A program made the position numbers and the translations under genes. The notes beneath the pieces were generated by a model. That model saw nothing but the letters and a program-made list of their open reading frames with translations. It was not told where the DNA came from and did not search any database. Positions 4,901 to 51,840 of a stretch of 52,010 bases of DNA are shown here, piece after piece (the first letter of the stretch is position 1; each line of letters begins with the position of its first letter). Source of the DNA: Deltaproteobacteria bacterium (GTDB taxonomy: Bacteria; Desulfobacterota; Dissulfuribacteria; Dissulfuribacterales; UBA5754); contig JAINCN010000056.1 of the NCBI GenBank assembly GCA_036574075.1, forward strand, positions 1 through 52,010, written 5' to 3'.

Positions 4901-4940
4901 AAGAGATGACCGTTTTGCAGCATCCCGGATGGAGTGTAAG

Positions 4941-5114
4941 CTGAATCCGTGAGATATGCACTCAACCTTGCGATTTCACAGCATAAGCCTACGGCCGGGG
5001 TATTTGTGGAGTGAGGCGCCCATGGACGGGGCTCGAACGGCAAATCTGCCCCCATGGACAGGAGGCTATTTGCCGCACGGAACAAATACCCCGGCCGTAG
5101 GCCCACGGATTCAG
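4941..5114. mobile_element. Family A palindromic element, copy 1 (174 bp, intact)
   Basis: Ends are CTGAATCCGTGAG (left) and CCACGGATTCAG (right). Inside, arms of 21 bp at 4987-5007 and 5082-5102 are perfect inverted repeats (core CCTACGGCCGGGG / CCCCGGCCGTAGG). The left or long arm carries an extra stretch of about 30 bp that includes ATATGCACTCAA. The core holds GCGCCCATGGAC and CGGCAAATCTG with complementary partners, so it can fold into two further hairpins. The left flank GTGTAAG and right flank GTGTAAT share 6 of 7 bases, a possible target duplication. Short ORFs through it are by-products. It lies between divergent mdh and alr. Confidence 0.85.
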
Positions 5115-5243
5115 GTGTAATCTGAATCCGGGGTTTTCTTTCCCCGTGCCTATGGGCGATGGATTGACTCCTCCCCTCAGCGGTCGGCATTTTCCGATCC
5201 CCTTGAAAGCCGAAACAAAATACGTCAAGCTCACCCACATCCC

Positions 5244-6371
5244 ATGCCATTTTCTTCCCTCAACCGCATCGAGGTCAATCTCTCGGCCATCCGCCAGAAC
5301 TTCCGTGCGATCGCATCCCTCCATGGCCTTGAAACATCCCGTCTCATGGCGGTTGTCAAGTCGGACGGCTACGGCCACGGGATGGTGGAAGTATCCCGGT
5401 TGCTCGTGGCGGAAGGGGCGTGGGGTCTTGCAATCTTCGACCTCTCCGAGGGAGAAAGGCTTCGTTCGAACGGGATCTCAGCTCGCATCTTCCTTCTCTC
5501 AGGTTTCCCCCTGGGAGACGAGGAGGGAATCATGGCCCTCGGCCTCATCCCAGGGGTCACCCAAAGGGCCCAGCTCCATGCCCTGGAGAAGGAGGCTGCC
5601 CGTCGAAAGGCCAGATGCGAGATCCATCTCAAGGCCGACACCGGAATGGGGCGGATGGGGTTTGAGCCGGAAGAGATCACCGAGATCGTAAAGGCCCGGG
5701 GTGAGTGGCCCCATCTGGCATTTGCTGGCCTTTACACCCATCTCTCCTCGGCAGATGACCCGGAAGACCCTGAGACCCGGCGTCAGATCGATGTCTTCGC
5801 GCGCCTCGTTGCCACGGTCAGGCGCCTCGGCTGGGACCCGCCGTTTCTCCACGCCGCCAACTCTGCCGGCCTCATCCACTTTCCCGAATCCATTTATTCG
5901 ATTGCCCGCATCGGGCTTGCGATCTATGGCGCATACCCTGGGGAGAAGGCAAAGGAAAAGATCGCGCTGCAGCCAGCCATGAGTTTCAAGAGCAGGATCG
6001 TGGAGATCCGATCGTCCCCGCCTGGTTCTCCAGTGAGCTATGGGCATCGGTTCCGCTGCGCCCGAGCAAGCCGCATCGCAGTCCTTCCAGTCGGCTACGA
6101 CGACGGCTATTTCCGCTCCCTCTCCGGCTCGGCCAGGGTCATCATACGGGGGCGACCCCGCCCAGTGCTCGGAAACATCTGCATGAAGGCCCTCATGGTG
6201 GATGTGACCGACGCCCCTGCGGCCGAGGTGGGCGATGAAGCGGTCCTACTCGGCCGCCAGGAGGGTGAAGAAATCACCCTTGAAGAGCTCGCAGAGTGGT
6301 CAGGCACCATCAGTTACGAAGTCATGTGCTCCCTTGGCACGCGAAACACCAGATACCACAAAGGATCATAA
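5244..6371 (+). CDS. alr: Alanine racemase
   Basis: A 375-residue fold-type III PLP enzyme making D-alanine for peptidoglycan. The PLP lysine is K39 in AVVKSDGYGHG; the usual context is VKANAYGHG, so the Ser-Asp pair is a mild variant. The second catalytic base is Tyr 266 in VSYGHRF. HLKADTGMGRMGF and LHAANSAGL fit the barrel consensus. No convincing Shine-Dalgarno precedes ATG 5244. It heads a plus-strand run in which spacings are short or negative: tatB begins 5 bp after its stop. The 129 bp before it, beyond family A copy 1, contain a small CGGGG-CCCCG hairpin at about 5129-5146. Confidence 0.95.
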   Translation: MPFSSLNRIEVNLSAIRQNFRAIASLHGLETSRLMAVVKSDGYGHGMVEVSRLLVAEGAWGLAIFDLSEGERLRSNGISARIFLLSGFPLGDEEGIMALGLIPGVTQRAQLHALEKEAARRKARCEIHLKADTGMGRMGFEPEEITEIVKARGEWPHLAFAGLYTHLSSADDPEDPETRRQIDVFARLVATVRRLGWDPPFLHAANSAGLIHFPESIYSIARIGLAIYGAYPGEKAKEKIALQPAMSFKSRIVEIRSSPPGSPVSYGHRFRCARASRIAVLPVGYDDGYFRSLSGSARVIIRGRPRPVLGNICMKALMVDVTDAPAAEVGDEAVLLGRQEGEEITLEELAEWSGTISYEVMCSLGTRNTRYHKGS

Positions 6372-16552: not shown

Positions 16553-16556
16553 GTCC

Positions 16557-16697
16557 CTGAATCCGTGAGCCTACGGCCGGGGTATTTGTTTCGTGTGGCA
16601 AATAGCCCCTGTCCATGGGGCAGATTTGCCGTTCGAGCCCCGGCCGTAGGCTTATGCTGTGAAATCGAAAGGTTGAGTGCATATCTCACGGATTCAG
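16557..16697. mobile_element. Family A element, copy 2 (141 bp, core deletion)
   Basis: Orientation is opposite to copy 1: short arm at left (CTGAATCCGTGAG then CCTACGGCCGGGGTATTTGT), long arm at right ending GCATATCTCACGGATTCAG. Compared with copy 7 it lacks 31 bp of core and arm, removed between two CCCC tracts, so the right arm keeps only CCCCGGCCGTAGGC. No matching flanking direct repeat is seen. It fills most of the gap between aroC and mpl and stops 4 bp short of the mpl start codon. Confidence 0.85.
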
Positions 16698-16765
16698 GTA
16701 ATTCGCCCTTGGGGGACGGGGATGCAACTATTCAGGAGGCCTTGAATAGGAACCATGTCGGCACT

Positions 16766-18456: not shown

Positions 18457-18567
18457 ATGCAAGGCGCGAAAATTTCCCCCTCCCCATCCCAAGGGTGGGG
18501 GATCATCAGCCGCATGGACTGGAAAATTGAAACAACGCCGCGAGAATCGGTTTTTTTCAGCGGGATC
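18457..18567. repeat. Family B intergenic repeat, copy B2
   Basis: The outer segments match B1 at 6-126, but the centre is a different hairpin, CCCCATCCC-AA-GGGTGGGG, followed by GATCATC. The 367-bp gap between aroK and cmoA (18390-18756) is occupied by the aroK -10 box, this repeat and the decayed family A copy 3. No gene is apparent there. Confidence 0.7.
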
Positions 18568-18614
18568 TTGCCCGATCTTCATCATTTCTTCATGAAGATC
18601 TCCTATATTCTTGC

Positions 18615-33988: not shown

Positions 33989-34037
33989 GGACGGGGGGAG
34001 CAGCCAGACACCCTGGATCGGTGAGATCCATCCCTGT

Positions 34038-35174
34038 ATGAAGATCTTGTATGTTTCTGCCGCACATGTCCCTTCCGGGACCGCGAACAGCATCAACATC
34101 GTGAGATCCTGTTCCGCCATGGCAAAGCTCGGCCATGAGGTCGTTCTTCTACATCCCGCCAGTCATGGGCCGGGGTCGGAAAAAGGAGACCCGGATCCGT
34201 TTTCCTTTTATGGAGTGCCTGCCTCTTTCCGGATCAAGAGGCTTCCATGCCCTGGCCTCATCGGCGGGCGGACACTTTATTGCGCATCAGTCGCATTATA
34301 TGGCCTTGCCATGCGTCCGGATCTGGTCTTCGGACGATACCTGAGGGCGACCTATTATCTTTGCCGATTGGGTTTCCCAGCGGTCTGCGAACTCCACAGC
34401 GGCGTACGATTCAAGGGGCAGAAATCATATTTTTTGGAAAGGCTCGCCGCATCTGCAAACCTTTTGGCCTTCATTACCATCTCGAGGATGATGGGTGATT
34501 ATTTCGAACAACTGGATCCCATCAAGAGGAACAGGAAACCTGTTTTGGTCGCTGGGTGCGGCGGGGAGCCCCTGTCCGGGGAGCCGGCGCCATCCAAGAT
34601 CCAAAAGGTCACAACAGGACTCGATATCGGCTATTCCGGCAAGCTGGATGTTACAAAGGGGCTTGGCCTCATCGGCGCTATTGCATCCAGATTGCCCCAC
34701 CACGATTTCCATATCTTTGGAGGGAGTCCGGAGGAGGTAGCTGAGTGGCGGACGCGAACGTCCCTTCGGAATGTCCATTTTTACGGGTTCATCCCGCCGG
34801 GGGATCTCCCAGGTTACTTGGGCTCGATGGATCTCTGTCTGCTTCCCTGTCAGAGGAATCCCGTAAATCCCAGCGGGCAGATATTTGGATCCCCCCTGAA
34901 GATGTTCGATTACATGGCCCTGAAGAAGGCCGTCCTTGCCTCCGATTTTCCTGAAATCCGGGAAATCCTGGACGAGACGTGCAGCGTCCTGCTTGACCCG
35001 GGGGATCCTGCGGCATGGGCACGGACCATAGATGGTTTGACGAAAAACGATATCCGCCGGCTCGGAGAGGCCGCCCATGCCCGTTTCATTTCACATTACA
35101 CCCGTGAGACGCGATACCGAAGGTTGCTTGCCGAAATCGACGCGATCCGGTCTTGTCGGAGGCCGGGTTCTTGA
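34038..35174 (+). CDS. Family 4 glycosyltransferase
   Basis: A 378-residue GT-B glycosyltransferase. The N-terminal acceptor domain begins MKILYVSAAHVPSGTANSI. The C-terminal sugar-nucleotide domain includes IGYSGKLDVTKGLGLI, VHFYGFIPPGDLPGYLGSMD and SPLKMFDYMALKKAVLASDFPEIREIL, matching the GT4 pattern with the usual second Glu of the EX7E motif replaced or shifted. Donor and acceptor are unknown; envelope polysaccharide is likely given gmhA 0.7 kb away. ATG 34038 starts the conserved fold and lacks a strong ribosome site. Base composition is slightly lower in GC than in its neighbours. Confidence 0.85.
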   Translation: MKILYVSAAHVPSGTANSINIVRSCSAMAKLGHEVVLLHPASHGPGSEKGDPDPFSFYGVPASFRIKRLPCPGLIGGRTLYCASVALYGLAMRPDLVFGRYLRATYYLCRLGFPAVCELHSGVRFKGQKSYFLERLAASANLLAFITISRMMGDYFEQLDPIKRNRKPVLVAGCGGEPLSGEPAPSKIQKVTTGLDIGYSGKLDVTKGLGLIGAIASRLPHHDFHIFGGSPEEVAEWRTRTSLRNVHFYGFIPPGDLPGYLGSMDLCLLPCQRNPVNPSGQIFGSPLKMFDYMALKKAVLASDFPEIREILDETCSVLLDPGDPAAWARTIDGLTKNDIRRLGEAAHARFISHYTRETRYRRLLAEIDAIRSCRRPGS

Positions 35175-35276
35175 GCCTGCCTGATCTACGGGCCGAAAAA
35201 CGCAACATCCCTTGATCTTCTCCCCATACTCGGGAATCATGCAATAAGATAGCACGGCATCAGACACGGAGGACGC

Positions 35277-35894
35277 ATGACCCTGATAACCGGATTCATG
35301 GGCTCACCTCGAAAAGGCGGAAACACGGATATCCTGCTCGATGCCCTCCTTGTCGAGGCTGCGGCTCATGGAGCGGTAACGGAAAAGATTGCCATTGCGG
35401 GCCGCGACATCACGCCCTGCATCGAGTGCGGGGGGTGTGACGAGACCGGCATCTGCGTCCTTAGCGACGGCATGACGCCTCTTTATGAAAAGATCGAGGC
35501 CTCTGACGTGGTGGTCCTTGCATCCCCCATCTTTTTTTACAACATCACTGCTTCCACCCAGGCCCTGGTCGAAAGGAGTCAGGCCTGCTGGACCGGCAAG
35601 TACCGTCTCAAACGTGGCCCCTTGGGCGGGAAGATGCGAAAGGGGGTCTTCCTTTCCCTCGGCGCCACCCATGGAAAGCTCCTCTTCGATGGGGTACTTC
35701 GAGTGGTCCGGTACTTTTTCGACGCCATCGACGCCACGTTCGAGTGTGCGCTACTCTACCGGGGGGTCGAGAAACGCGGGGCCATCCTGGGGCATCCGAC
35801 TGCCATCAAGGAGGCACGGACCCTCGGGGCCTTTCTTGCCGAGGGAAAAGACCTAAAAGACCTTTCTGGTATGGAAGGTCTTGTTCGGCCATAA
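35277..35894 (+). CDS. Iron-sulfur flavoprotein-like NAD(P)H:FMN reductase
   Basis: A 205-residue flavodoxin-fold protein. The FMN phosphate loop is MGSPRKGGNTDILLDALL. CIECGGCDETGIC gives a compact cysteine motif as in iron-sulfur flavoproteins (ISF), which could bind a [4Fe-4S] cluster. VVLASPIFFYNITASTQALVERSQ contributes to the flavin site. Role in electron transfer to unknown acceptors, typical of anaerobes. ATG 35277 has a GGAGG site. The gmhA gene follows closely. Confidence 0.87.
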   Translation: MTLITGFMGSPRKGGNTDILLDALLVEAAAHGAVTEKIAIAGRDITPCIECGGCDETGICVLSDGMTPLYEKIEASDVVVLASPIFFYNITASTQALVERSQACWTGKYRLKRGPLGGKMRKGVFLSLGATHGKLLFDGVLRVVRYFFDAIDATFECALLYRGVEKRGAILGHPTAIKEARTLGAFLAEGKDLKDLSGMEGLVRP

Positions 35895-35907
35895 GAGGCG
35901 CGTGCCC

Positions 35908-36492
35908 GTGCAGGAAGACCCCTTCTCACTTCTTATCGAATCCTCCCTGCGTGCCCTGGTTGATGTCCTCGAAGGGGGCGTTCACGAGCACTCCGGCCGT
36001 CTTATTGAGGCCGCACGGATCGTCACCACTTCGCTTGAGACGGGTGGCAAGCTCCTCATCTGCGGAAACGGGGGAAGTGCAGCCGACGCCCAGCACATCG
36101 CGGCGGAATTCGTGAATCGTTTTCGTCTTGAGCGCCGTGCACTTCCTGCCGTTGCCCTTACCACGGATTCATCGGTGCTCACCTCCATTGCGAACGACTA
36201 CAGCTTTGACGAGGTCTTCGCCAAGCAGGTCGCGGCCCTTGCAGGGCCAAAGGACGCGCTTCTCGCCATCAGCACGAGTGGCGCGTCTGCGAACATTCGC
36301 CGGGCGCTTGAAACATCCAGGCACATCGGCGCACGGAGCATCCTCTTTTCCGGTGGCACAGGGGGGGAGGCGGCGCGGCACGCGGACCTCGTCCTCTGTG
36401 TCCCTTCGTCAGATACCCCGCGCATCCAGGAGGTGCATATCTTCTGGGGACACGTCCTTTGCGACCTCGTGGAAAGGTCCCTGTTTGCCTGA
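35908..36492 (+). CDS. gmhA: Phosphoheptose isomerase GmhA
   Basis: A 194-residue SIS-fold isomerase converting sedoheptulose-7-phosphate to heptose-7-phosphate for LPS inner core. The blocks LLICGNGGSAADAQHIAAEFVNRF, LTTDSSVLTSIANDY and AISTSGASANIRRAL are diagnostic. GTG 35908 has AAGAGG 9 bp upstream and gives standard length; a GTG at 35902 and a TTG at 35881 are upstream alternatives. It implies a heptose-containing LPS. Other heptose genes (gmhB, hldE) are not here. Confidence 0.92.
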   Translation: MQEDPFSLLIESSLRALVDVLEGGVHEHSGRLIEAARIVTTSLETGGKLLICGNGGSAADAQHIAAEFVNRFRLERRALPAVALTTDSSVLTSIANDYSFDEVFAKQVAALAGPKDALLAISTSGASANIRRALETSRHIGARSILFSGGTGGEAARHADLVLCVPSSDTPRIQEVHIFWGHVLCDLVERSLFA

Positions 36493-36550
36493 TCGGGGAT
36501 CCGCCTCTTTATTCTTGCGTGTCATGCCTGTGTGGCGGTAAAGTATAAAC

Positions 36551-36723
36551 CTTAATCCGTGGGCCGACGGCCGGGGTATTTGTTCCGTGCGGCAAATAGC
36601 CTCCTGTCCATGGGGGCGGATTTGCCGTTCGAGCCCGTCCATGGGCGCCTCCATCCACAAATACCCCAGCCGTCGGCTTATTCTGTGAAATCGAAAGGTT
36701 GAGTGCATATCTCACGGATTCAG
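36551..36723. mobile_element. Family A element, copy 4 (173 bp)
   Basis: Short arm left, long arm right. The left end is CTTAATCCGTGGG (one change from the consensus), the right end CTCACGGATTCAG. The arm core is CCGACGGCCGGGG, paired with CCCCAGCCGTCGG; one T-A pair of copy 1 has become G-C in both arms, and one mismatch exists. Flanks GTATAAAC (left) and ATATAAAT (right) agree at 6 of 8 aligned positions, a likely eroded target duplication. It occupies most of the 271-bp gap between gmhA and fmdB. Confidence 0.85.
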
Positions 36724-36763
36724 ATATAAATTCTTTTACATATGCGGCGTTAAAGGAGGAGAC

Positions 36764-36991
36764 ATGCCCATCTACGAATTCGTATGCGCCAGTTGTGGCG
36801 AGTCGTTTGAAAAACTCGTTTTCGGTTCGGATCCGGCCGTGATTTGCCCCAAGTGCGGATCGCATGAGACGGAAAAGAAAATGTCTGCCTGTGCTTTCAA
36901 GTCAGGCTACAGGTTTGTAGGCACCGGCAAGAAGGCGGGTTCTGCCTGCGGCGGATGTACGAGTTCGAGTTGCTCCTCTTGCGGAGGTTGA
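36764..36991 (+). CDS. FmdB-family zinc-ribbon protein (1)
   Basis: A 75-residue small protein. MPIYEFVCASCGESFEKLV and VICPKCGSHETEKK give the CxxC...CxxC zinc ribbon of the FmdB/putative regulatory protein family. The tail is Ser/Gly/Cys-rich (SACGGCTSSSCSSCGG) and could bind more metal. The ATG has a strong AAAGGAGG site. It begins 40 bp after family A copy 4 and is 9 bp upstream of hemC, so it is probably cotranscribed with the heme genes. Confidence 0.88.
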   Translation: MPIYEFVCASCGESFEKLVFGSDPAVICPKCGSHETEKKMSACAFKSGYRFVGTGKKAGSACGGCTSSSCSSCGG

Positions 36992-37000
36992 GAGGGGAAG

Positions 37001-37924
37001 GTGCCCATTCTCCGCCTTGCCACGCGAAAGAGCGTCCTCGCCGTCACCCAGAGCACGTGGGTTAAGGATCGACTCGAGGCCCTGAATCCGGGGCTTGACG
37101 TGGAACTCGTCCGGATCACCACTAAGGGTGACCGGATACTTGACGTACCATTGGCCAGGATCGGAGGCAAGGGGCTCTTCGTGAAGGATATCGAGGAGGC
37201 CTTGCTTGCAGGAGAGGCGGACTTTGCTGTCCATAGCCTCAAAGACGTCCCGGCTGAGGTCCCGGAAGGACTTGAGGTCTCGGTTTTTCCCGAGAGGGAA
37301 GATGCCAGGGACGCATTCATTTCGAGAAACGGGGTGGCGCTTGCCGCGCTCCCATCGGGGTCGCGTGTGGGGACGAGCAGCCTGAGACGAATGGTCCAGC
37401 TTCGGTCTCGTCGACCGGATCTGGATATTATATCGCTTAGGGGGAACCTGGATACGCGCCTCAGGAAGCTGGATGCAGGTGAGTTCGACGCCATACTTTT
37501 AGCAGCAGCAGGCCTCAATCGCCTGGGGCTTGCCGGCCGCGTGACCGAATTTCTCGACCCGGAGGTAATGCTCCCGGCCGTGGGGCAGGGGGCACTGGCC
37601 CTTGAGTTTCGTACGGACGACACTGTTACCCGCAGGATCCTCGCACCCCTCCACCATCAGGAGACCGCCGTCTGCGTCACCTCAGAGAGGGCCTTTCTCT
37701 CCCGCCTTGAAGGGGGGTGTCAGGTGCCTATCGGTGCCCATGCGGTCATAGACAGGGATACCCTCAGGCTTTCTGGCCTTGTGGCGAACGAGGACGGAAC
37801 CCGGGTCATACGAAGGGAGAAGATAGGCCCGGTCTCCAGTCCCGAGACCCTGGGGACCGCTCTTGCAGATGAGATCCTTGCGGAAGGTGGGGCCGAGATC
37901 CTCAGGAGTCTCCATGAGACATAA
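37001..37924 (+). CDS. hemC: Porphobilinogen deaminase (hydroxymethylbilane synthase)
   Basis: A 307-residue enzyme assembling four porphobilinogens. Family motifs are LRLATRKSVLAVTQS, GGKGLFVKDIEEALL, DFAVHSLKDVPAEVP, RVGTSSLRRMVQL and LEGGCQVPIGAHA with the Cys that carries the dipyrromethane cofactor. It starts with GTG at 37001 after a purine-rich run (GAGAGGGGAAG). It overlaps cobA/hemD by 11 bp. Its product is the substrate of the HemD half of the next protein. Confidence 0.96.
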   Translation: MPILRLATRKSVLAVTQSTWVKDRLEALNPGLDVELVRITTKGDRILDVPLARIGGKGLFVKDIEEALLAGEADFAVHSLKDVPAEVPEGLEVSVFPEREDARDAFISRNGVALAALPSGSRVGTSSLRRMVQLRSRRPDLDIISLRGNLDTRLRKLDAGEFDAILLAAAGLNRLGLAGRVTEFLDPEVMLPAVGQGALALEFRTDDTVTRRILAPLHHQETAVCVTSERAFLSRLEGGCQVPIGAHAVIDRDTLRLSGLVANEDGTRVIRREKIGPVSSPETLGTALADEILAEGGAEILRSLHET

Positions 37925-39437
37925 GATAGGGCGGGTCTATCTCGTCGGCGCAGGGCCAGGGGATCCGGGCCTTCTCACCCTTCGGGGAAAGGAGCTTCTT
38001 GAGCGCGCCGAGGTCCTTGTGTATGACCGGCTTGCCAACCCCCGGCTCCTCTCTTTTGCTCACCCCGGGGCGGAACGTATCTACGTAGGAAAACGCAGCG
38101 GCCGCCACGCCGTCCCTCAGGAAGAGATCAATCGAATCATTGTGGAACACGCCCTTGCCGGAAGGGACGTGGTCCGGCTCAAAGGGGGGGATCCATTCAT
38201 CTTCGGCAGGGGGGGAGAGGAGGCCCAGGCCTGCGTCAAGGCCGGAATCTCTTTTGAGGTGGTGCCTGGGGTCACCTCAGCGATCGCCGTACCTGCCTAT
38301 GCCGGCATCCCCCTCACCCACCGGGAGCATACGGCCTCTGTGGCCATCATAACGGGCCACCGGCAGTTTGGTGAGGAAAAAGCCGAGGTGGGTTGGGAAG
38401 GGCTGGCCAAGGGGGCCGGGACCCTTGTCTTTCTGATGGGCATGAAGAATCTTCCCCACATCGTCGAGCAGCTCATCTGTCATGGGCGCTCCCCGCAAAC
38501 GCCCGCCGCTGTTATCGAGTGGGGGACCACCCCCCGGCAGAGGACGGTTCGGGGGATCCTTGCGGACATCGTCGCACGCGTGCATGAGGCCGGTTTGACC
38601 CCGCCATCCGTGGTCGTGATCGGGGACGTGGTGAGGCTCAAGGACGAGATAGATTGGTTCGAGAACCGGCCTCTGGTCGGAAGGCGCATACTTGTCACGA
38701 GGACCCGTGAGCAGGCAAGCGGTCTCGTGGCCCTTCTCGAGGAGCGGGGCGCCACATGTATCGAACTTCCCACCATTGAGGTGGTGCCACCTCGGGATAT
38801 GGGTCCTCTTGATGAGGCTATCGATGGACTCTCTCGATATGACTGGCTGGTCCTTTCGAGCCCTAACGCCGTCCGTTTCTTCATGGGGAGGCTCCTTTCC
38901 CGGGGGCTGGACGCCCGGGCCTTGGGAGGGGTCAGGATCGCCGTGGTGGGATCGGGGACGGCCGAGATCCTCGGATCTTATCACCTGAAACCCGATCTCA
39001 TTCCCGAGACCTTTCAGGCCGAGGGGCTCCTTGCCGCCTTTGAACGCATGGACATGAATGGCAAAAAGGTCCTCGTCCCCCGGGCCAAGAAGGCTCGGGA
39101 GGTGTTGCCTGAAGGGCTGTCCGCCCTTGGGGCCGAGGTCACCGTGGTGACGGCCTATGAGACCCTGACTCCGGAGCTCGACCCTGACGTGATCGAGATC
39201 CTTAGTAAATCCCCTCCGGACGTAGTCACGTTCACGAGTTCCTCCACAGCGAAGAACCTGGCGCGTCTCCTTCCTCCCGGCCTTTTCCATACCCTCCGGA
39301 CAAAGGCACGGGTCGCCTGCATCGGACCGGTGACTGCACAGACCGCACGATCACTCGGCTTAGAGGTCTCCATCATGCCTGAGGAGGCTACGATCCCTGC
39401 CTTGGTCGCTGCTATCGAGGATTTTTATCGGGGTTGA
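37914..39437 (+). CDS. cobA-hemD: Fused uroporphyrinogen-III C-methyltransferase and uroporphyrinogen-III synthase
   Basis: A 507-residue fusion. Residues 1 to about 245 are SUMT/CobA ([56 protein letters not shown]), which methylates uroporphyrinogen III to precorrin-2. Residues about 255-507 are HemD ([49 protein letters not shown]). The fusion channels intermediates toward siroheme, cobalamin and the alternative heme route. The next step, precorrin-2 dehydrogenase, is at 7.5 kb. A 7-bp hairpin spans the stop codon. Confidence 0.95.
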
Positions 39438-39446
39438 CCAACCCCG
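39429..39446 (+). terminator. Perfect hairpin across the cobA/hemD stop codon
   Basis: CGGGGTT (39429-39435) pairs with AACCCCG (39440-39446) around the loop GACC; the TGA stop lies at the apex. No T run follows. It may mark the end of the fmdB-hemC-cobA/hemD transcript or stabilise its 3' end. Confidence 0.45.
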
Positions 39447-39474
39447 CATCCATCCTCTATTGTGCGACATAATT

Positions 39475-39504
39475 TTGTCCAAATTCGTGAATTCTGCATG
39501 TAAT
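39475..39504 (+). promoter_or_regulatory. Candidate promoter for the second histidine kinase
   Basis: TTGTCC (39475-39480) and TGTAAT (39499-39504) are 18 bp apart within an AT-rich island that contrasts with the GC-rich surroundings. The second box matches the -10 consensus at 5 of 6 positions. A leader of about 130 nt would precede the start at 39642. Confidence 0.4.
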
Positions 39505-39641
39505 ATTTTGATTTAATGGTAAAATGTCCTATCCTTTGGAAAAGGGGGCCGGGGTGAGGTGATCTGTGCGTTGGTTGCCTGTATAACATTAAGAGGTTTC
39601 AGGGGGCTGTTGGCCGCCTTTCCTGATTTTGTCAGAGTTCC

Positions 39642-41090
39642 ATGAGCATCTTTTGCCCATCCTCTTCCCAGGAGCCGGGGTCGGTCTTCGCGCGCGTTCG
39701 AAAGAAGCGGGATGACTATGAACACTACGGCTTCTCCGTCCTTCAGGATCGGACTCTCCTGGCCTTTTTCGATCTTGCCCAGGAATACGAGACCCTGGAC
39801 AATTTCTACCGTGTCTGCGTCTATGTCCCGAAAGATTTTCTGGGATTCGATTCCTGTCTCTATCTCGTGGATCCGGAGACTCGCGAGCTCAGGATGGCGT
39901 GTGACACCCTTTCAGGGCTTGCCGTCTGTGGAAATCCGGCACCGGAAGGTATCCATCTCGCTCAGGAGCCCTATGATTCAACAGACTCTTTCATCGCCCC
40001 TATTCGGGGGAATTTTCGCCTTTTTTCCCGCAAACCCTTAGACTATGCCGAGGATGTGATCGGCATGTTCGAGGTCTTCTCTTTGTCCCGATTAGACGCG
40101 CAGGACCGCCTCTTTTTCGAAAAGTACGCGAACCGGATCGGCTATAGCCTCCATTACAAGCTCATAGCCGAACAAAATCAGCGACATCTCACCTTCATCA
40201 ACACCTTGGTTGCCGATATTGAGCACAACGTCATCGCCCCCAACATCCGCTACCGGGTATTTTTTCTCCGACTTCAGAAGATACTCGACCAGATCCGGGA
40301 GATCTCCGGCACTTGGAGGGCAGCCATCGAGGCCCATCTGGATGTCTGCGACCGGGCCAGGGATTTCATGCCCTTGAATGAGAGACTCAATAGCATCCTT
40401 GATAGCCTCGCCAAGGAATACGAGGGACTTGAAAAACACTATCAGAACACGAGTCTTTTTCTGGAGAGCCTACTTCGCCGGGAGCATTTCACCAAGGGTG
40501 AGCTCGTGCTCCAGCGCCGCAAGTGCAATTTTCGGCGTAGGATCATAGACCCGCAGCTCGACCGTTATCGGGAACGCCTCGAGCGCATGGGGATTCGCAT
40601 CGACGACCACATGGGAGGGGTGCCGGACGAGGACATCCCGCTTTTCGTGGATATTGGACTCATCTCACAGGTGTACGCGAATCTTTTCTCGAACGCCGAA
40701 AAATACTGCCGCGAGGTCCGGAATGAACGGGGCGAATACGTGAAGTTCATGGCATACGGCCGGGAGGTCATTGCGGATTTTTTCGGGCCCGGACGCCCCG
40801 GAATCAAGTTCAACGTCTTCACCACAGGCCCCCATATCAGCCCTGAGGACCAGGCCCACCTCTTTGAGGAGGGTTTCCGGGGGGGCGATACGGGATCTGT
40901 ACCTGGAACTGGCCACGGGCTCCATTTCGTAAAAAAGGTGGTGGAGGTCCACGGAGGAGTGGTCGGGTACGAGCCGGTCTATCTCGGAAACAATTTCTAT
41001 TTTGTCCTCCCCCTTCTGGAGCATGTGGAGGGGGAAGGTCTTCCAAATGATCACAAGGCGGAATGCGTAGCGTCTCCGGGTGGCATTTAG
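39642..41090 (+). CDS. Cytoplasmic sensor histidine kinase-like protein (orphan)
   Basis: A 482-residue protein without a membrane span. Residues about 30-175 look GAF-like (DNFYRVCVYVPKDFLGFDSCLYLVDPET). The probable H-box is LVADIEHNVIAPNIRY with H195, an unusual context. A long helical stretch at about 255-300 may be coiled. The ATPase part has N-box LISQVYANLFSNAEKYCREV and G-box PGTGHGLHFVKKVVEVHGG. No response regulator is adjacent. It resembles the kinase at 26.0 kb in overall plan, but I see no clear sequence identity. The substrate and signal are unknown. Confidence 0.78.
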   Translation: MSIFCPSSSQEPGSVFARVRKKRDDYEHYGFSVLQDRTLLAFFDLAQEYETLDNFYRVCVYVPKDFLGFDSCLYLVDPETRELRMACDTLSGLAVCGNPAPEGIHLAQEPYDSTDSFIAPIRGNFRLFSRKPLDYAEDVIGMFEVFSLSRLDAQDRLFFEKYANRIGYSLHYKLIAEQNQRHLTFINTLVADIEHNVIAPNIRYRVFFLRLQKILDQIREISGTWRAAIEAHLDVCDRARDFMPLNERLNSILDSLAKEYEGLEKHYQNTSLFLESLLRREHFTKGELVLQRRKCNFRRRIIDPQLDRYRERLERMGIRIDDHMGGVPDEDIPLFVDIGLISQVYANLFSNAEKYCREVRNERGEYVKFMAYGREVIADFFGPGRPGIKFNVFTTGPHISPEDQAHLFEEGFRGGDTGSVPGTGHGLHFVKKVVEVHGGVVGYEPVYLGNNFYFVLPLLEHVEGEGLPNDHKAECVASPGGI

Positions 41091-41109
41091 GGGGCCGATT
41101 TTTGAAATC

Positions 41110-41253
41110 CTGAAACCGTGTGAGATATGCACTCAAACTTTCGATTTCACAGCATAAGCCTACGGCCGGGGTATTTGTGGATGGAGGCGCCCATGGACAG
41201 GAGGCTATTTGCCGCACGAAACAAAAACCCCGGCCGTAGGCTCACGGATTCAG
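41110..41253. mobile_element. Family A element, copy 5 (144 bp, core deletion)
   Basis: Long arm left, with a mutated end (CTGAAACCGTGTGAG); right end CTCACGGATTCAG. The arms match copy 1 except for one mismatch. Compared with copy 1, 32 bp of core were lost between two CCCATGGAC repeats. Flanks TGAAATC (left) and GGAAATG (right) share GAAAT at the same offset. It starts 19 bp after the histidine kinase stop and ends 4 bp before the first possible start codon of the helicase. Confidence 0.85.
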
Positions 41254-41257
41254 GGAA

Positions 41258-43420
41258 ATGGTATCTCACAGGGCAGGCATGATGGGCCATGATGATGCCC
41301 TGAATCCTGAGCAGCGCGAGGCCGTCGAGACCCTCTACGGTCCGGTTCTCGTCATCGCAGGCGCAGGCAGCGGCAAGACCCGGACCCTTGTCCATCGGGT
41401 AGCCAGGCTTGTGGAGGCAGGTGTCGAACCAAAACGCATCCTCCTGCTCACCTTTACACGCAAGGCCGCGGAGAACATGCTCTCCCGCGCATCCGAACTC
41501 ATTGGGCCGGCCTGCGAAAAGGTGGCGGGCGGGACCTTTCACGGATTTGCCCACGGAATGCTCCGCCGTTATGCGTCTCTTGCGGGCTACCCGAGGGGAT
41601 TCACCATCCTCGACCGGGCCGATGTCCAGGACGTGTTACATCTTCTGGCCCGCAACCTCGGCCTCTCTGGGCCTGGCCGCCGCTTTCCTTCCAAGTCGGC
41701 CCTTGCCTCCCTGGTGAGCAAGACGGCCAACACGGGTGGATCGCTCGATCTGGTCCTCGAGAGGGAATATCCCCATCTCCTTCCTGATCTTTCGGATCTC
41801 GCGCGTCTCTTCCAGGCCTACCGGGAATACAAACAGGCCGGGGCCCTCCTTGACTACGACGACCTCCTCACGACCTGGCGGGACATCCTCAGGGGATACG
41901 CCGAGGTCAGAGAGACCATGGGCAGGACCTTCAGCCACATCATGGTGGACGAATATCAGGACACCAACGCAATCCAGGCGGATATCGTCCGTCTCATGGC
42001 AACTGGTCACGACAACGTAATGGTCGTCGGAGACGACGCCCAGTCCATCTATTCCTTTCGTGGGGCGAACTACCGGAACATCCTGGACTTTCCGAAACAG
42101 TTTCCAGGGACACGCATCATCAAGCTCGAGAGGAACTACCGGAGCACACAGCCGAATCTGGACTGCACGAACGCCATCATCGCCTGCGCCCGTGAGAGTT
42201 TTGCCAAGCGCCTTGTGGCCGAACGTAAGGGGGGGCGTCCTCCTGTTGTATATCCCGCCCGGGACGAGATCGACCAGGCCCGGTTCGTGGCCGATCGGAT
42301 CGAGGAGTTCCTCGCCCAGGGGATCCCGCCCTCTGAAATCGCGGTCCTTTTCCGCATGGCCTTCCATTCCTTCCAGCTCGAGACGGAACTCAGACGCAAG
42401 GGCCTCGGTTTTGTGAAACGGGGCGGCATGCTCCTCACCGAGGCCGCCCATATCAAGGACCTTCTTGCCTTGCTCCGCATCCTCGTCAACCCTCTCGACC
42501 GGATCAGCGTCAACCGAGTCCTGTCCCTCCTCGAGGGGCTGGGGCCCAAGGGGGTGGAGAGGATCTATGCCAGGATGCTCACGGCTGAAGATCCCTTTGC
42601 GGCCCTTGCTTATATGGAGTCCCGGGCCTCATGGGCAGGGGAGGTGCAGGCCCTTGGCGGCCTCCTCATGGAGCTGAAAAGCTCGGGGCTTACGGATCTT
42701 GCCGGAGTCCTCGGGCGTCTCGAGGCCTGGTACAGACCCCATCTCGAGCGCATCCACGTGGACGACCATCCGAAAAGGACCCAGGAGCTCGCCTATCTCA
42801 GGGAAATGGCCCTCCGCTACGACGACCCGTCCGTCTTTCTCGCGGATTTTTCCCTCGAGCCTCCTGACGGGGTGGAAGAAACGAAGGAGGATCGGATTGT
42901 CCTTTCCACCATGCACTCGGCAAAGGGCCTCGAATGGGACGTGGTCTTTGTCATCTCCCTTGCCGAAGGACGTTTCCCTGCCCCGCGATCAGTCCATAGC
43001 CCGAGCGAGCTCGAGGAGGAAAGGCGCCTTTTTTATGTCGCCTCCACGCGCGCCAAGGACCACCTCTTTTTTTGTTACCCCACTGTCATTTCGGTCTCTG
43101 GTTCAGGGATCCTTCCGTCTGCGCCCTCCAGGTTTCTTGCCGAGATACCTAGCCCGTTTCTCGTCTATTGGAAGGAAAAAGGGCCTGTTGTGTCCTGTAG
43201 CGAGGGTCTTACAAAGACCTCCAGCCAAGCGAGGCAGGCCCAGAAGGCCGGGGATCACGCCACTTCTCAGGGCCTTTCTGTGGGACAGCGGGTGAGGCAT
43301 CCCATCTTCGGCCCCGGACGGGTGAGCGCGGTCATAGGGCCTGAAAAGGTCCGCATAGCCTTTGATACGGCAGGTGAAAAGGTCCTGAACACCACAGTCG
43401 CGCGGCTTTCAGTTTTGTAA
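41258..43420 (+). CDS. UvrD/PcrA-type superfamily 1A DNA helicase
   Basis: A 720-residue 3'-5' helicase. Walker A AGAGSGKTRTLVHRV (K40), motif Ia LTFTRKAA, motif II VDEYQDTN, motif III GDDAQSIYSFRGANY, motif IV LERNYRS, motif V VLSTMHSAKGLEWDVVFV and motif VI FYVASTRAKDHLF are all intact. The C-terminal module QRVRHPIFGPGRVSAVIG is PcrA-like and may contact RNA polymerase. Starts at 41258, 41279 or 41282 are all in frame; the first is 4 bp beyond family A copy 5 and would use the element end (TCAGGGAA) as ribosome site. Role in repair and replication fork maintenance is inferred from the family. Confidence 0.93.
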   Translation: MVSHRAGMMGHDDALNPEQREAVETLYGPVLVIAGAGSGKTRTLVHRVARLVEAGVEPKRILLLTFTRKAAENMLSRASELIGPACEKVAGGTFHGFAHGMLRRYASLAGYPRGFTILDRADVQDVLHLLARNLGLSGPGRRFPSKSALASLVSKTANTGGSLDLVLEREYPHLLPDLSDLARLFQAYREYKQAGALLDYDDLLTTWRDILRGYAEVRETMGRTFSHIMVDEYQDTNAIQADIVRLMATGHDNVMVVGDDAQSIYSFRGANYRNILDFPKQFPGTRIIKLERNYRSTQPNLDCTNAIIACARESFAKRLVAERKGGRPPVVYPARDEIDQARFVADRIEEFLAQGIPPSEIAVLFRMAFHSFQLETELRRKGLGFVKRGGMLLTEAAHIKDLLALLRILVNPLDRISVNRVLSLLEGLGPKGVERIYARMLTAEDPFAALAYMESRASWAGEVQALGGLLMELKSSGLTDLAGVLGRLEAWYRPHLERIHVDDHPKRTQELAYLREMALRYDDPSVFLADFSLEPPDGVEETKEDRIVLSTMHSAKGLEWDVVFVISLAEGRFPAPRSVHSPSELEEERRLFYVASTRAKDHLFFCYPTVISVSGSGILPSAPSRFLAEIPSPFLVYWKEKGPVVSCSEGLTKTSSQARQAQKAGDHATSQGLSVGQRVRHPIFGPGRVSAVIGPEKVRIAFDTAGEKVLNTTVARLSVL

Positions 43421-43447
43421 GACAGGGCCTTGCCTTTTGGTTTTGGG

Positions 43448-43620
43448 CTGAATCCGTGAGTTATGAACTTAACTTGGCAATTTTTTCACAATGAGCCGAC
43501 GTTCGGGGCATTTGTTCCGTGCGGCAAATAGCCCCCATCCATGGGGGCGGATTTGCCGACGGCGCCCGTCCATGGGCGCCTCACTCCACAAATACCCCGA
43601 ACGTCGGCTCACGGATCCAG
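43448..43620. mobile_element. Family A element, copy 6 (173 bp, perfect 8-bp flanking repeat, inverted core)
   Basis: Ends are CTGAATCCGTGAG and CTCACGGATCCAG. The flanks are identical 8-bp direct repeats, GTTTTGGG at 43440-43447 and at 43621-43628, as left by a transposase. The arm core is CCGACGTTCGGGG, paired with CCCCGAACGTCGG: three base pairs differ from copy 1, each changed on both sides. The core reads TCCGTGCGGCAAATAG next to the long arm, the reverse of every other copy. GGCGCCC-GTCCAT-GGGCGCC makes a 7-bp inner hairpin. The last codons and stop of the M20 peptidase lie inside it. Confidence 0.9.
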
Positions 43621-44784
43621 GTTTTGGGCCCATTCCTCTATTATCGCTATCATCCTTCGAGTGGTGAGCTCCATGTCGTCGAGCAGGATGAACTCCCCGG
43701 TGCTGTGGACCTTCTGCATCCCTGTGCCGAGGATCGCAGTGGTGATTCCCTTGCCGTAGAGGATGTTTGCGTCGCTTCCGCCCCCTGTCTTTTGGAGCTT
43801 GAGCGGCGAACCCATCCGTTCAGACGCCAAAAGGGCGCAGGCAACGATGGGGTGGTCGTCCGGGACGCAGAGGGCGGGGTAGTCGTCCCTCACATCTGAC
43901 TGGATAAGGGGGAGGGAGGCCTTCGAGGTCTTTCCCTGGTCTTCTTTCTGCAAGTGTGCTGCCTCTCTATGAAAGGCGCCGATGATGTGATCCTGTACCT
44001 CCCTGAGCCGCGCAGGGTCATGGCTTCTGACCTCGCCCTCGAGGACGCACTCTGCGGGCACGATGTTCGTCGCCGTTCCTCCCTGGATGATGCCGATGTT
44101 GGCGGTAGTCTCTTCGTCGATCCGTCCGAGGGTTAGCCCTGCCATGGCCTTTGCCGCGATCTGGATGGCGTGGATCCCGAGTTCCGGGCTGATGCCGGCG
44201 TGGGCCGCCCTGCCCACCACCTTGAGGGTGAAGCGGATGGCCTGAGGTGCCCGGGTAATCAGGACATCGGGGTCTGTGGAGTCAAGGGCGAATCCTACAC
44301 GAGCTGATAGCAGGGACGGGTCCAGGGCCTTTGCCCCGAGGAGGCCGATTTCCTCACAGACCGTGAAGAGGAATTCCATGGGGCCGTGGGGGATTCCGGT
44401 GTCCCGGAGGATCCGGGCGGCCTCGATCATGATGGCGATGGCGGCCTTGTCGTCGGCGCCGAGGATAGTGGATCCGTCCGAGGAGAATCGTCCGTTTTGA
44501 AAGACCGGCCGAACACCCCTTCCCGGTTCCACGGTATCCAGGTGGGCGTTGAAAAGCAGGGGGCGGGCAGGGATGGAACCCGGAATACGGACAATGAGGT
44601 TTCCGGTTTCCGAGCCCGTCAGGGAGGCGCTCGAGTCTGTTTTCGTCTCCGCGCCCAGTTCTTCTTCGAATATTTCGCGGATTCGGCAGGCAATCGATCC
44701 CTCCTCACGGGAGACGCTGTCGATCCTGACGAGCTCGAGGAAGGTCTGGGCCAGGCGATCTCGGTTGACTGGGGAGAGTGTCAT
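43609..44784 (-). CDS. M20-family metallopeptidase (peptidase T-like)
   Basis: A 391-residue dizinc aminopeptidase/tripeptidase-type enzyme. Metal ligands and catalytic Glu are seen in LFNAHLDTVEPG, LGADDKAAIAIM, FTVCEEIGLLGAKAL, ALDSTDPDVL and the final His in MQKVHSTGEFI. GRAAHAGISPELG is the dimerisation block. The start has a GGAG site. The stop codon and the codons for the last residues come from the right end of family A copy 6, so the native terminus was probably replaced or slightly extended when the element inserted. Confidence 0.9.
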   Translation of the reverse strand: MTLSPVNRDRLAQTFLELVRIDSVSREEGSIACRIREIFEEELGAETKTDSSASLTGSETGNLIVRIPGSIPARPLLFNAHLDTVEPGRGVRPVFQNGRFSSDGSTILGADDKAAIAIMIEAARILRDTGIPHGPMEFLFTVCEEIGLLGAKALDPSLLSARVGFALDSTDPDVLITRAPQAIRFTLKVVGRAAHAGISPELGIHAIQIAAKAMAGLTLGRIDEETTANIGIIQGGTATNIVPAECVLEGEVRSHDPARLREVQDHIIGAFHREAAHLQKEDQGKTSKASLPLIQSDVRDDYPALCVPDDHPIVACALLASERMGSPLKLQKTGGGSDANILYGKGITTAILGTGMQKVHSTGEFILLDDMELTTRRMIAIIEEWAQNLDP

Positions 44785-44794
44785 GGGGACTCCT

Positions 44795-47470
44795 TCATTT
44801 ACGCATCACAGCCTTTGGTCCCTGCCCGAACTCCTGCATGACGAGGGCGATTTCCTTTTCACGGGAATCGACCTCACCGTCAAGACGCGCACGAAGTAGC
44901 CTGTCCAGGATCTGCCGGTAGATGGGGCCGGGCGTGAAGCCCATCTCTCTCAGGTCGTCACCGGTGAGCGCTGGACGTGTTTCAGCCAGTTCCGTGACGT
45001 AGCGCGATAGGTAACGGCGCACCTCTTCGTGTTTCGTTCGGGCGAGCAGGTGGAGGATGAGCTCTATTTTGAGCGGGGTTAGTACCTTATGGATCTCGCT
45101 TGCCCTCGGATTTTCCCTGTCAGATAGATATTCTTCGGCCTTGCCAGCAAGGAAAAGGCCGTGGGTGAGGAGCCTTTTTGTCTCCCCTTCGAGGCCAAGG
45201 CGTTCGATAGTGGCGGCCAGATCCCCATGACGCAGACCGGAGAGGAGGGCCATGAGATAGACGAGCCAGCGCCGAGGCCTCGATTCGGTGAAGAGGAGGT
45301 CGTGCCAGGCTAGTACGTCGTAGGTCCGCGAGAGGATTTGGGATACGGTCGGCGTAAGGGAAAGATTGGGGTGGATGATGGGGAGGAGATCGAGTTCGGC
45401 GCACCGGATGATGGCGGGTCTCGGATCCGGTTCGTCAAGGATGAGTTTGAGCTCGGCAAAGAGGCGTTTGCCGGACAGCCGCGAAAATATGTCGAGGGCG
45501 AGGGCGTTTTTTATGAGTCTCAGGGTGTGTTTCCCAATGGTGAAGCCGTATCGCTGTTCGAATCGAATGGCGCGGAAGATCCGGGTCGGGTCCTCGACAA
45601 AGCTCAGGCTGTGGAGGACCCGGATCATCTTGTCCTTCAGGTCACGCTGGCCCCCGAAAAAATCGATCAGCCGACCGAATTCCGGCGGATTGAGTTTTAT
45701 GGCCATGGTGTTGATGGTGAAGTCCCGCCGGTAGAGGTCGAGCTTTATGGAGGAGAGGGCGACCGTGGGCATGGCCGCCGGGTATTCATAGTACTCCCAC
45801 CGGGCTGTGGCCACATCTATCTTGAATCCGTCCGGAAGTATCACGACCGCAGTCCCGAATTCCTTGTGCGCCTTGATCCTCCCCCCGAGTCGTTTGGCGT
45901 ATGAACAGGCGAAGTCAATTCCATTTCCTTCGACCACCAGATCCAGGTCCAGGTTGGGGACACGTAGAAGGAGGTCACGGACGAATCCTCCGACCACGTA
46001 AACCATGACGCCTTTTTCTTCTGCCGTTTCCCCGGCCGTCACAAGAAGATTGGAAATCCTTTTGTCCAGCCTCTCTCGAAGGAACCGGGCCAGGTTTCGG
46101 CCCTGGTTCGATTCATCGAGGAGGGGTTCGGGTTGCCGTCCCGGATCGCCAGTCAGGATCTGGAGGAGATCGGTCCGTGTCACGACACCGGTGATCCGCC
46201 CGTCCTGGATGACTGGGAGGAATCGTTGGCGGTGACCTACGATGATGTCCTGTACGGATCGGAGGGTGTCCTCGGGCTGCACGGTCAGGAATTCGGTGGA
46301 CATGTAATCACGGACCGGTGAGGAATCGAGTCCATGATAAAGGGCCTTTTCTATGGTGCGGCGGGAGATCATGCCGAGGACCTTGCCGTCTTCGACAATG
46401 GGCAGGACGGTGATCCCGAGGCGGGTGAGGTGATCGTGGGCCTCGGAAATAGTGGTTTCGGGTTTGATGGAATGGACGGGTGATGACATGATGTCCCGGA
46501 CCCGGGGTTCGTGTCCGAGCTGTCGGGACAATTCTGCAATAAGGCGTTCTTCGGCCTCGAGAAGGGTGATCCCCTTGATGGTCGCTGATGCAGCCGAGGC
46601 ATGACCTCCGCCGCCAAGCCCCTGGAGGATTCGGCCTGCGTCCACGGAGGGGACCCGGCTCCGACCCACGATCACGACCTGATCCGCCATCAGGGCGATC
46701 ACGAAGACAGAGTCCAGGCCTCGGATGTCCATGATTTCGTGGGCGAGAAGGGCAAAATCTTCAACGTAGTCAGGCCGTGAGGTCTTGGCAATAACAATGG
46801 GAACACCGCCGAAGTGGTGCACCCGTGCGGCATGGAGGAGATCGTCCAGGATCTCCACGTGCTCCGGGGTCAGCTGGCGGAACAGGTAATCGTGGACGGA
46901 CTTGAGGTCCGCCCCGTGTTCCAGTAGCCAGGCCACGGCCTGGAGATCCTCGGGCGTGGTGCTCGGGAAGGTGAATGAGCCCGTGTCCTCGTATATCCCG
47001 AGCGCGAGGAGTGTGGCCTCGGCCGGTGTGACGGAGATCCCCTTCTCCTGGAGGAGTTCCACCATCATGGTGGTATTCGCACCTACGGGCCGGGAAAAGA
47101 CCGTCTTAGACGGGATATCCCCGGCGGAGGCGGTGTGGTGGTCGTATAGAATGATCTCCACGCCGGGCAGGTCGAGGAGGAAGGCGAGCGGCCCGAGACG
47201 GTTCCTCTGGTTGGTGTCCACGATGATGAGGCGACGAATGACACTCGCATCCAGTCTTTTCATCCGGATGAGCGGCAGATCGGGGAGAGGGCCGGAGAAT
47301 TTGCCCTCGAAAAGGTCCCGAACGGCCTTTTCCTGAGAGCCAGGAAGGAGGATTCGAGAGCCGTCGTACAGGAGACTCGCAGCGAGGGCCGATGCGACAG
47401 CATCGAAATCCGCATTCAGATGGGTTGTGATGACCGTGTCGGGGGAGGATCTCGTTGGTTGGCCGATCAC
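44795..47470 (-). CDS. DHH/DHHA1-CBS-CBS-tRNA nucleotidyltransferase fusion
   Basis: An 891-residue multidomain protein. DHH phosphoesterase motifs HLNADFDAVAS, VDTNQRN and YDHHTAS (110-112) are followed by DHHA1 (GGGGHASAASATI, about 287-297). Two CBS domains follow (about 322-440). The nucleotidyltransferase has GGFVRDLLLRVPNLDLDLVVEG with catalytic D508/D510 and RRDFTINTMAI. This is the A-adding tRNA nucleotidyltransferase/poly(A)-polymerase type found fused in many Desulfobacterota and some other bacteria. The DHH part may degrade nanoRNA or a cyclic dinucleotide and CBS may sense adenylates; these roles are inferred. The start is a GTG at 47470 without a clear ribosome site. Confidence 0.9.
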   Translation of the reverse strand: MIGQPTRSSPDTVITTHLNADFDAVASALAASLLYDGSRILLPGSQEKAVRDLFEGKFSGPLPDLPLIRMKRLDASVIRRLIIVDTNQRNRLGPLAFLLDLPGVEIILYDHHTASAGDIPSKTVFSRPVGANTTMMVELLQEKGISVTPAEATLLALGIYEDTGSFTFPSTTPEDLQAVAWLLEHGADLKSVHDYLFRQLTPEHVEILDDLLHAARVHHFGGVPIVIAKTSRPDYVEDFALLAHEIMDIRGLDSVFVIALMADQVVIVGRSRVPSVDAGRILQGLGGGGHASAASATIKGITLLEAEERLIAELSRQLGHEPRVRDIMSSPVHSIKPETTISEAHDHLTRLGITVLPIVEDGKVLGMISRRTIEKALYHGLDSSPVRDYMSTEFLTVQPEDTLRSVQDIIVGHRQRFLPVIQDGRITGVVTRTDLLQILTGDPGRQPEPLLDESNQGRNLARFLRERLDKRISNLLVTAGETAEEKGVMVYVVGGFVRDLLLRVPNLDLDLVVEGNGIDFACSYAKRLGGRIKAHKEFGTAVVILPDGFKIDVATARWEYYEYPAAMPTVALSSIKLDLYRRDFTINTMAIKLNPPEFGRLIDFFGGQRDLKDKMIRVLHSLSFVEDPTRIFRAIRFEQRYGFTIGKHTLRLIKNALALDIFSRLSGKRLFAELKLILDEPDPRPAIIRCAELDLLPIIHPNLSLTPTVSQILSRTYDVLAWHDLLFTESRPRRWLVYLMALLSGLRHGDLAATIERLGLEGETKRLLTHGLFLAGKAEEYLSDRENPRASEIHKVLTPLKIELILHLLARTKHEEVRRYLSRYVTELAETRPALTGDDLREMGFTPGPIYRQILDRLLRARLDGEVDSREKEIALVMQEFGQGPKAVMRK

Positions 47471-47514
47471 GGCAAAGGAAGAGAAAGAGGGAGGATGATT
47501 CCGGGATGACAGGA

Positions 47515-47532
47515 CGGTCCGGGGATGGACCG
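47515..47532 (-). terminator. Hairpin after the universal stress protein gene
   Basis: CGGTCC (47515-47520) pairs with GGACCG (47527-47532) around a 6-nt loop in the 73-bp gap between the usp stop and the downstream nucleotidyltransferase gene on the same strand. No T run is visible on the minus strand, so termination may be incomplete. Confidence 0.35.
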
Positions 47533-47543
47533 CCCCGGTGTCT

Positions 47544-47990
47544 TCAAACCTTGTAAGGGTTTATCGTAAGGACGGGACAGTCCGCAGCTTTGACCACACC
47601 CTCGGCGACCGAGCCGAACATGACCTTTTCCAGCCCCTTTCTACCGTGGGTGCCCATGATGATAAGTTGGACCCCCGCCCCTTTTGCATAGTTGAGGATC
47701 TCTCCCACTATGTCTCCCATGAGGACCTTGGTGATGACCGAATGCCCCGGCAATGCCTCCTCGACGAAGCGATCCATGGCCTTTTGTGCCCCATCTATTA
47801 GTTCCTTTTCGTAGGTGGACCACCAGGCCGCTCCCATCTCGAAGCCCGAGAATTCTTCAGGTCCGCGAACGACGTGGACAATGTGGATTTCCGCTCCGAA
47901 TTTCTGGGCGAAATGTAGGAGATGGGGTATGATTTTTCGGGAACTATCGGTAAAATCGACCGGGAACAGGATCTTCTTGATTTCAGCCAT
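47544..47990 (-). CDS. Universal stress protein UspA family
   Basis: A 148-residue single-domain protein starting KKILFPVDFTDSS. The ATP-binding signature MGTHGRKGLEKVMFGSVAEGVV (GxHGx2G...GSVA pattern) is intact, so it is an ATP-binding type. The substrate and regulation are unknown. ATG 47990 has a GGAGG site. The gene is divergent from the IscA-like gene; the 226-bp gap contains a TTCCCTG-CAGGGAA hairpin (48066-48093) and AT-rich stretches, but no confident promoter. Confidence 0.93.
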   Translation of the reverse strand: MAEIKKILFPVDFTDSSRKIIPHLLHFAQKFGAEIHIVHVVRGPEEFSGFEMGAAWWSTYEKELIDGAQKAMDRFVEEALPGHSVITKVLMGDIVGEILNYAKGAGVQLIIMGTHGRKGLEKVMFGSVAEGVVKAADCPVLTINPYKV

Positions 47991-48216
47991 ATGACCCTCC
48001 TACATAGGATATTTGACATCTAACTATCACTTTCTTTCGAACGCTGTCAAGGAGCCTCGCTCAGATTCCCTGCCTGGTCTTTTCGACAGGGAAAGAATGT
48101 GCCTATGATCGGATGATATTTTATGGTATTTTCAAATCGGATTGTCCATCAGTTCAACCCTTCGTTTTCATGCCTATTGGATAATCCGGATCCCAATCCC
48201 TGTGGAGGACTTTTTC

Positions 48217-51596: not shown

Positions 51597-51644
51597 GCTT
51601 GACATCAGGGCCGGCTGGATGCCGATATAGACTCTGAAGTGAAT

Positions 51645-51786
51645 CTGAATCCGTGAGATATGAATTTGACTTGGCAATTTTTCAAAATAAGCCGACGTTC
51701 GGGTAGCTTGTGGATACAGGCGCTCATAGACGGGGGGCTATTTGCCGCACGGAACAAATACCCCTAACGTCAGCTCACGGATTCAG
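51645..51786. mobile_element. Family A element, copy 8 (142 bp, diverged, core deletion)
   Basis: Long arm left, ends CTGAATCCGTGAG and CTCACGGATTCAG intact. Its long arm and arm core (CCGACGTTCGGG) are of the copy 6 type, but the right arm has diverged so about 6 of 21 pairs mismatch. The core carries a deletion like copy 5. Flanks AGTGAAT and GGTGAAG share GTGAA. The 389-bp gap 51597-51985 contains this element, a hairpin and a candidate promoter, and no gene that I can support. Confidence 0.8.
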
Positions 51787-51840
51787 GGTGAAGACGCAAA
51801 AAGGGGATTTTTCATCTCCACTGAAGGGGAGTTTTCCAGT

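Follow-up and report, generated by a model that had tools for sequence, protein, structure and literature searches.

Ends and target duplication of a very-high-copy, genus-specific MITE beside an M20 peptidase gene

Between a UvrD/PcrA-type helicase gene (41258-43420, plus strand) and an M20-family peptidase gene (43609-44784, minus strand) of a deltaproteobacterium lies a short repetitive element, copy 6 of its family in the 52,010-nucleotide stretch of DNA that was analysed (the window). The sequence GTTTTGGG is found twice around this element, at 43440-43447 and 43621-43628. The initial annotation gave both occurrences correctly, and took them for an 8-bp target duplication left by a DDE-type transposase. 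The locus therefore raises the question of whether the flanking repeat records a transposition, how long the duplicated target was, and what kind of enzyme moved the element. With a probability of about 0.95, copy 6 belongs to a very-high-copy, genus-specific MITE family inserted with a 5-6-bp stagger, and the 8-bp repeat consists of a 6-bp duplication and a chance G on each side.

Ends of the element and length of its duplication

The boundaries were derived from flank statistics of 81-119 copies, which were sampled by search and in stretches of the genome, with copy 6 as the first query. Each left-flank position was compared with each right-flank position in 81 copies. Flank identity was 61% at exactly five positions, -6 to -2 on the left against +2 to +6 on the right, and the edges of this block were sharp. 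The uniformity of this block and its abrupt limits show where the element ends. The base adjoining the end chosen in the initial annotation matched between left and right in just 4% of the 81 copies; the left side has C there (70/81) and the right side G (75/81), both of them terminal-repeat bases, which accounts for the low value. This outermost, complementary pair is part of the terminal inverted repeat, not of the target. The family element begins one base outside the earlier boundary on each side, with a C before CTGAATCCGTG and a G after CACGGATTCAG, and the corrected family ends read CCTGAATCCGTG...CACGGATTCAGG.

With its ends placed by the family flank statistics, copy 6 is a complete MITE of 175 bp (43447-43621, plus strand), the left terminal base of which has changed from C to G. 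The left terminal inverted repeat is GCTGAATCCGTGAG (43447-43460, plus strand; CCTGAATCCGTGAG in the family), and the right one reads CTCACGGATCCAGG on the plus strand (43608-43621, minus strand; CTCACGGATTCAGG in the family). Target copies of 6 bp, TTTTGG, lie at 43441-43446 on the left and 43622-43627 on the right (both plus strand); they agree at 6/6 bases in the family register and are also placed by the empty site of a sister species, described below. The duplication is thus 6 bp instead of 8, the earlier boundaries having been one base short per side, and the two outer matching Gs are coincidental. On one side, a genomic G stands opposite the right-terminal G of the element. On the other, a genomic G faces the first base of the element, where C has become G.

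The corrected register was applied to 119 copies from this genome and from G001, a second genome of the same genus that represents a sister species. Perfect duplications of 5 bp were seen in 43 copies, of 6 bp in 14 and of 7 bp in 1, with none of 3, 4, 8, 9 or 10 bp. With right flanks shuffled among copies, one would expect 0.65 at 5 bp, 0.17 at 6 bp and 0.01 at 8 bp, so that 5-bp duplications are about 66-fold above chance. The AT content was 72% in the duplications vs. 50% in the wider flanks. An excess of matching flanks over the genomic copies, a check that the initial annotation had proposed, was found to be large. No perfect 5- or 6-bp duplication was seen in 62 of the 119 copies. This share, about half, is what one might expect if the flank matches were chance or pre-existing sequence and the family had spread by recombination rather than transposition. 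Given the 66-fold excess at 5 bp, and empty sites that hold a single target copy, that account is hardly credible.

Four other copies in the window can be read in the same register. Copies 1 (4940-5115, plus strand), 5 (41109-41254, plus strand) and 8 (51644-51787, plus strand), for which 7 bp had been suggested, all carry perfect 5-bp duplications: TGTAA (4935-4939, 5116-5120), GAAAT (41104-41108, 41255-41259) and GTGAA (51639-51643, 51788-51792). The flanks of copy 4 (36550-36724, minus strand) had been described as alike at 6 of 8 bases; the duplication stands, and in the corrected register it is a perfect 6 bp, TATAAA (36544-36549, 36725-36730). Both of these earlier readings arose because the duplications are 5-6 bp once the register is corrected. 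Copy 2 (16556-16698, minus strand) has both ends intact and a duplication that is not recognisable.

Could copy 6 nevertheless carry a true 8-bp duplication, GTTTTGGG, having been moved by a transposase other than that of the rest of the family? The repeat is perfect, and with right flanks shuffled among copies (n = 81) 0.01 perfect 8-bp matches are expected in the earlier register. Collapse of the repeat also leads to an identical empty site whether 6 or 8 bp is assumed. However, there is no further copy with a perfect 8-bp repeat in the earlier register, and none of the 119 has one in the corrected register. In the earlier register three copies match at 7/8 bases, and all of them become perfect 6-bp cases once corrected; the right terminal G is conserved in 75/81 copies, hence belongs to the element and not to the target. 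An 8-bp duplication at copy 6 is, on this evidence, very improbable.

Empty sites in a sister species

G001 is collinear with window positions 34026-48106 at an identity of 89-92%. Copy 5 is absent from it, and the two flank alignments overlap there by exactly 5 bp, GAAAT. Copy 4 is also absent; a single target, TGTATA, is found at the expected place and of the expected length (6 bp). At the copy-6 locus, the sister species has CCTTTTG-ATTTCGA-GCCCATTCC vs. CCTTTTG-GTTTTGG-GCCCATTCC here after removal of the element and one target copy, and the lengths are equal. The site thus holds one target, TTTCGA vs. TTTTGG, with an identity of 4/6. The initial annotation had looked to a relative with an element-free gap between the helicase and M20 peptidase genes and one copy of the target, and G001 shows both. 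There is a reciprocal case, a copy in G001 at about C4:6084-6320 that is absent from the present genome. A 6-bp and an 8-bp repeat collapse to one and the same string; the empty site is thus proof of insertion, while the length follows from the family statistics. That transposition left the flanking repeat as a target duplication is upheld by flank matches far above chance and by an empty site with a single target.

Copy 6 is younger than the species split because its duplication is intact and it is absent from the sister species. The further suggestion that it is among the youngest copies did not hold. Its nearest neighbour is 93.1% identical, which places it at rank 57 among 67 full-length copies sampled in this genome, a ranking biased by the rarity of its core orientation, which leaves it fewer close neighbours; the closest pair is 99.4% identical. 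Each of its terminal repeats carries one substituted base.

The insertion also altered the neighbouring gene. The M20 peptidase gene has its stop codon (43609-43611, minus strand) within the right terminal repeat, and the TGA is terminal-repeat sequence (CCG TGA G). The predicted C-terminus is ...EEWAQNLDP, and the peptidase of the sister species continues to ...EEWARNQKEGQQPTSQN. Copy 6 truncated the peptidase by replacing the 3' end of its gene, and with it the last residues, and by supplying the stop codon. The locus is an example of a MITE providing a neighbouring gene's stop codon. Open reading frames that cross copy 6 are either part of the genes on its two sides or overlap them. A terminator scan at the site gave one match, not above shuffles.

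The MITE family and its candidate mobiliser

When up to one mismatch is allowed, the 11-base end CTGAATCCGTG has 516 matches in the genome (1.99 Mb), and a reversed-pattern control has 1. The family numbers some 250 copies in the genome, a small one for a bacterium. Most are 171-177 bp in length and are without a transposase gene. The size criterion used for a MITE was under about 500 bp, non-coding; the family is short and non-coding, and has terminal inverted repeats, a 5-6-bp target duplication with empty sites, and a high copy number. Among 46 genomes of the order, the exact 14-base terminal repeat was present in the two genomes of this genus only. No paired terminal repeats were found in viral contigs, and Rfam gave no match to the element at gathering scores (window) or up to an E value of 1 (five loci). 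A likeness to the TwoAYGGAY motif was dropped, Rfam being without any match. The family of copy 6 is a genus-specific MITE family, so far unnamed, and is filed as a MITE by its features.

Several described families bear comparison. The Chunjie MITE of Geobacter uraniireducens, likewise deltaproteobacterial, is short and non-coding, ends in terminal inverted repeats with direct repeats on either side, and occurs in tens of intergenic copies, with an insertion in an operon (PMC10969869). As compared by description, it differs in length and number: 178-235 bp with 38 full and 57 partial copies, vs. about 175 bp and 516 ends here. ERIC, Correia and QMITE2 are also short, high-copy MITEs and are likened to the present family by description; QMITE2 likewise lies mostly in 3' untranslated regions (PMC10969869). 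Other repeats occur near copies of the family. A dispersed repeat with GCCGCGAGAATCGGGTTTTTTCAGCGGGATC, or a sequence close to it, lies at 65-135 and 18506-18576 of the window; similar sequence occurs on C9 and C33 of this genome and near position 6400 of C4 in G001, and the repeat is thus found near MITE copies in both species. Another short palindromic repeat, TGGTCTCGTAAAAAGTC...GACTTTTTACGAAACCA, is present in G001 close to where copy 4 is missing and also within a copy of the MITE (L195, near 3190-3360 and 6110-6220).

On the best explanation, a transposase that cuts AT-rich targets with a 5- or 6-bp stagger inserted the non-coding MITE of about 175 bp with the terminal inverted repeat CCTGAATCCGTG(AG) between the helicase and M20 peptidase genes, and gap repair duplicated TTTTGG. 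A DDE transposase, as proposed initially, is by analogy the likely agent. No transposase gene with the ends of the family was found. Profile searches of the draft genome with PF01609, PF13701 and NF033559 yielded no autonomous partner with these ends, and no PF01609 transposase at all. In the stretches examined, no two terminal repeats spaced by 500-3000 bp had a perfect duplication around them. The transposase partners of old MITEs are often lost. The enzyme may have been a DDE transposase acting in trans, possibly an IS1634-type one, of which the assembly no longer holds a recognisable gene.

The search with PF13701 (IS1380) returned two relics in this genome, decayed transposase genes on C47 and C63 (L125, L126), and a MITE end adjoins the first. 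These relics were rejected as the source of the MITE; their border sequence, CCTCCTCGACGTTTCGTGTGG, agrees with the MITE repeat in CCT only. Likewise, only two relics of IS1634 type were found in the genome, at C9:19005-19226 and C33:13329-13469, the latter a weak match (E 0.0022). Both adjoin an end of the MITE family (L215/L217, C9:19005-19233; L216/L218, C33:13329-13630).

IS1634 elements have ends of the form C-----YT and make 5-6-bp duplications in AT-rich tracts (PMC2266710). The AT-rich, 5-6-bp target of the MITE points weakly to a transposase of this type, which would refine the best explanation rather than oppose it. The MITE end has C at position 1 and T at position 7, and the only IS1634 relics that were found both adjoin ends of the family. 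However, the terminal repeat has C at position 8 where T is expected, the match of the C33 relic is weak, and no intact transposase with the MITE ends was found. In addition, where the C9 relic has intact relatives in other genomes of the phylum, these end in inverted repeats like CGGATGTTCCAG, not CCTGAATCCGTG. An IS1634-family mobiliser is thus a tentative candidate, with the odds somewhat against it. IS1634 elements also differ from the MITE in being 1.5-2 kb in length with a transposase gene (PMC2266710). The MITE family is not filed under IS1634; its terminal repeats were not found on a transposase-bearing IS1634 element.

The hairpin core

The interior of copy 6 contains an inner inverted repeat around two hairpins (43492-43609, plus strand), assigned from the DNA fold and from orientation counts. 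The predicted DNA fold of the element is a stem with two hairpins, a three-way junction, at -58.4 kcal/mol (z -10.6). The hairpin core is found in both orientations inside the same MITE arms, and copy 6 has the rarer one. This orientation, with the long arm set to the left, was seen in 7/67 full-length copies sampled here, a share that is if anything too high because copy 6 served as the first query, and in 2/18 in G001. An eighth call in this genome was the mis-paired copy 2 and was left out.

Exact complementarity between the two arms of the inner stem, over 13 bases, was seen in 33/82 copies vs. 8.4 expected on shuffling (maximum 18 in 5000), a statistic that ignores kinship among copies. 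Nine different sequences occur among the exactly complementary pairs, and the arms change together between copies. Template switching between inverted-repeat arms has been reported to homogenise the arms and invert the spacer (PMC8604942). Such switching would explain both the flips in orientation and the paired arm changes.

G007, a genome from another family of the same order, has many copies of a comparable core, likewise of two hairpins and with loops of CCATGG type (L082, L086, L105-L124). The cores there have two other sets of stems, differing from those of the MITE core and self-complementary. The core could be a structured nucleic-acid module distinct from the MITE ends, with a selected cruciform or RNA function beyond what template switching alone would give; we regard this as unlikely.

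The ends and target duplication are now fixed for a large MITE family, which is a prerequisite for seeking its transposase; the 8-bp reading would have pointed to the wrong transposase families. The transposition footprint of copy 6 is ordinary, and the hairpin core is the part worth following. It flips and its arms change together, and a family with hundreds of copies lets such events be counted.
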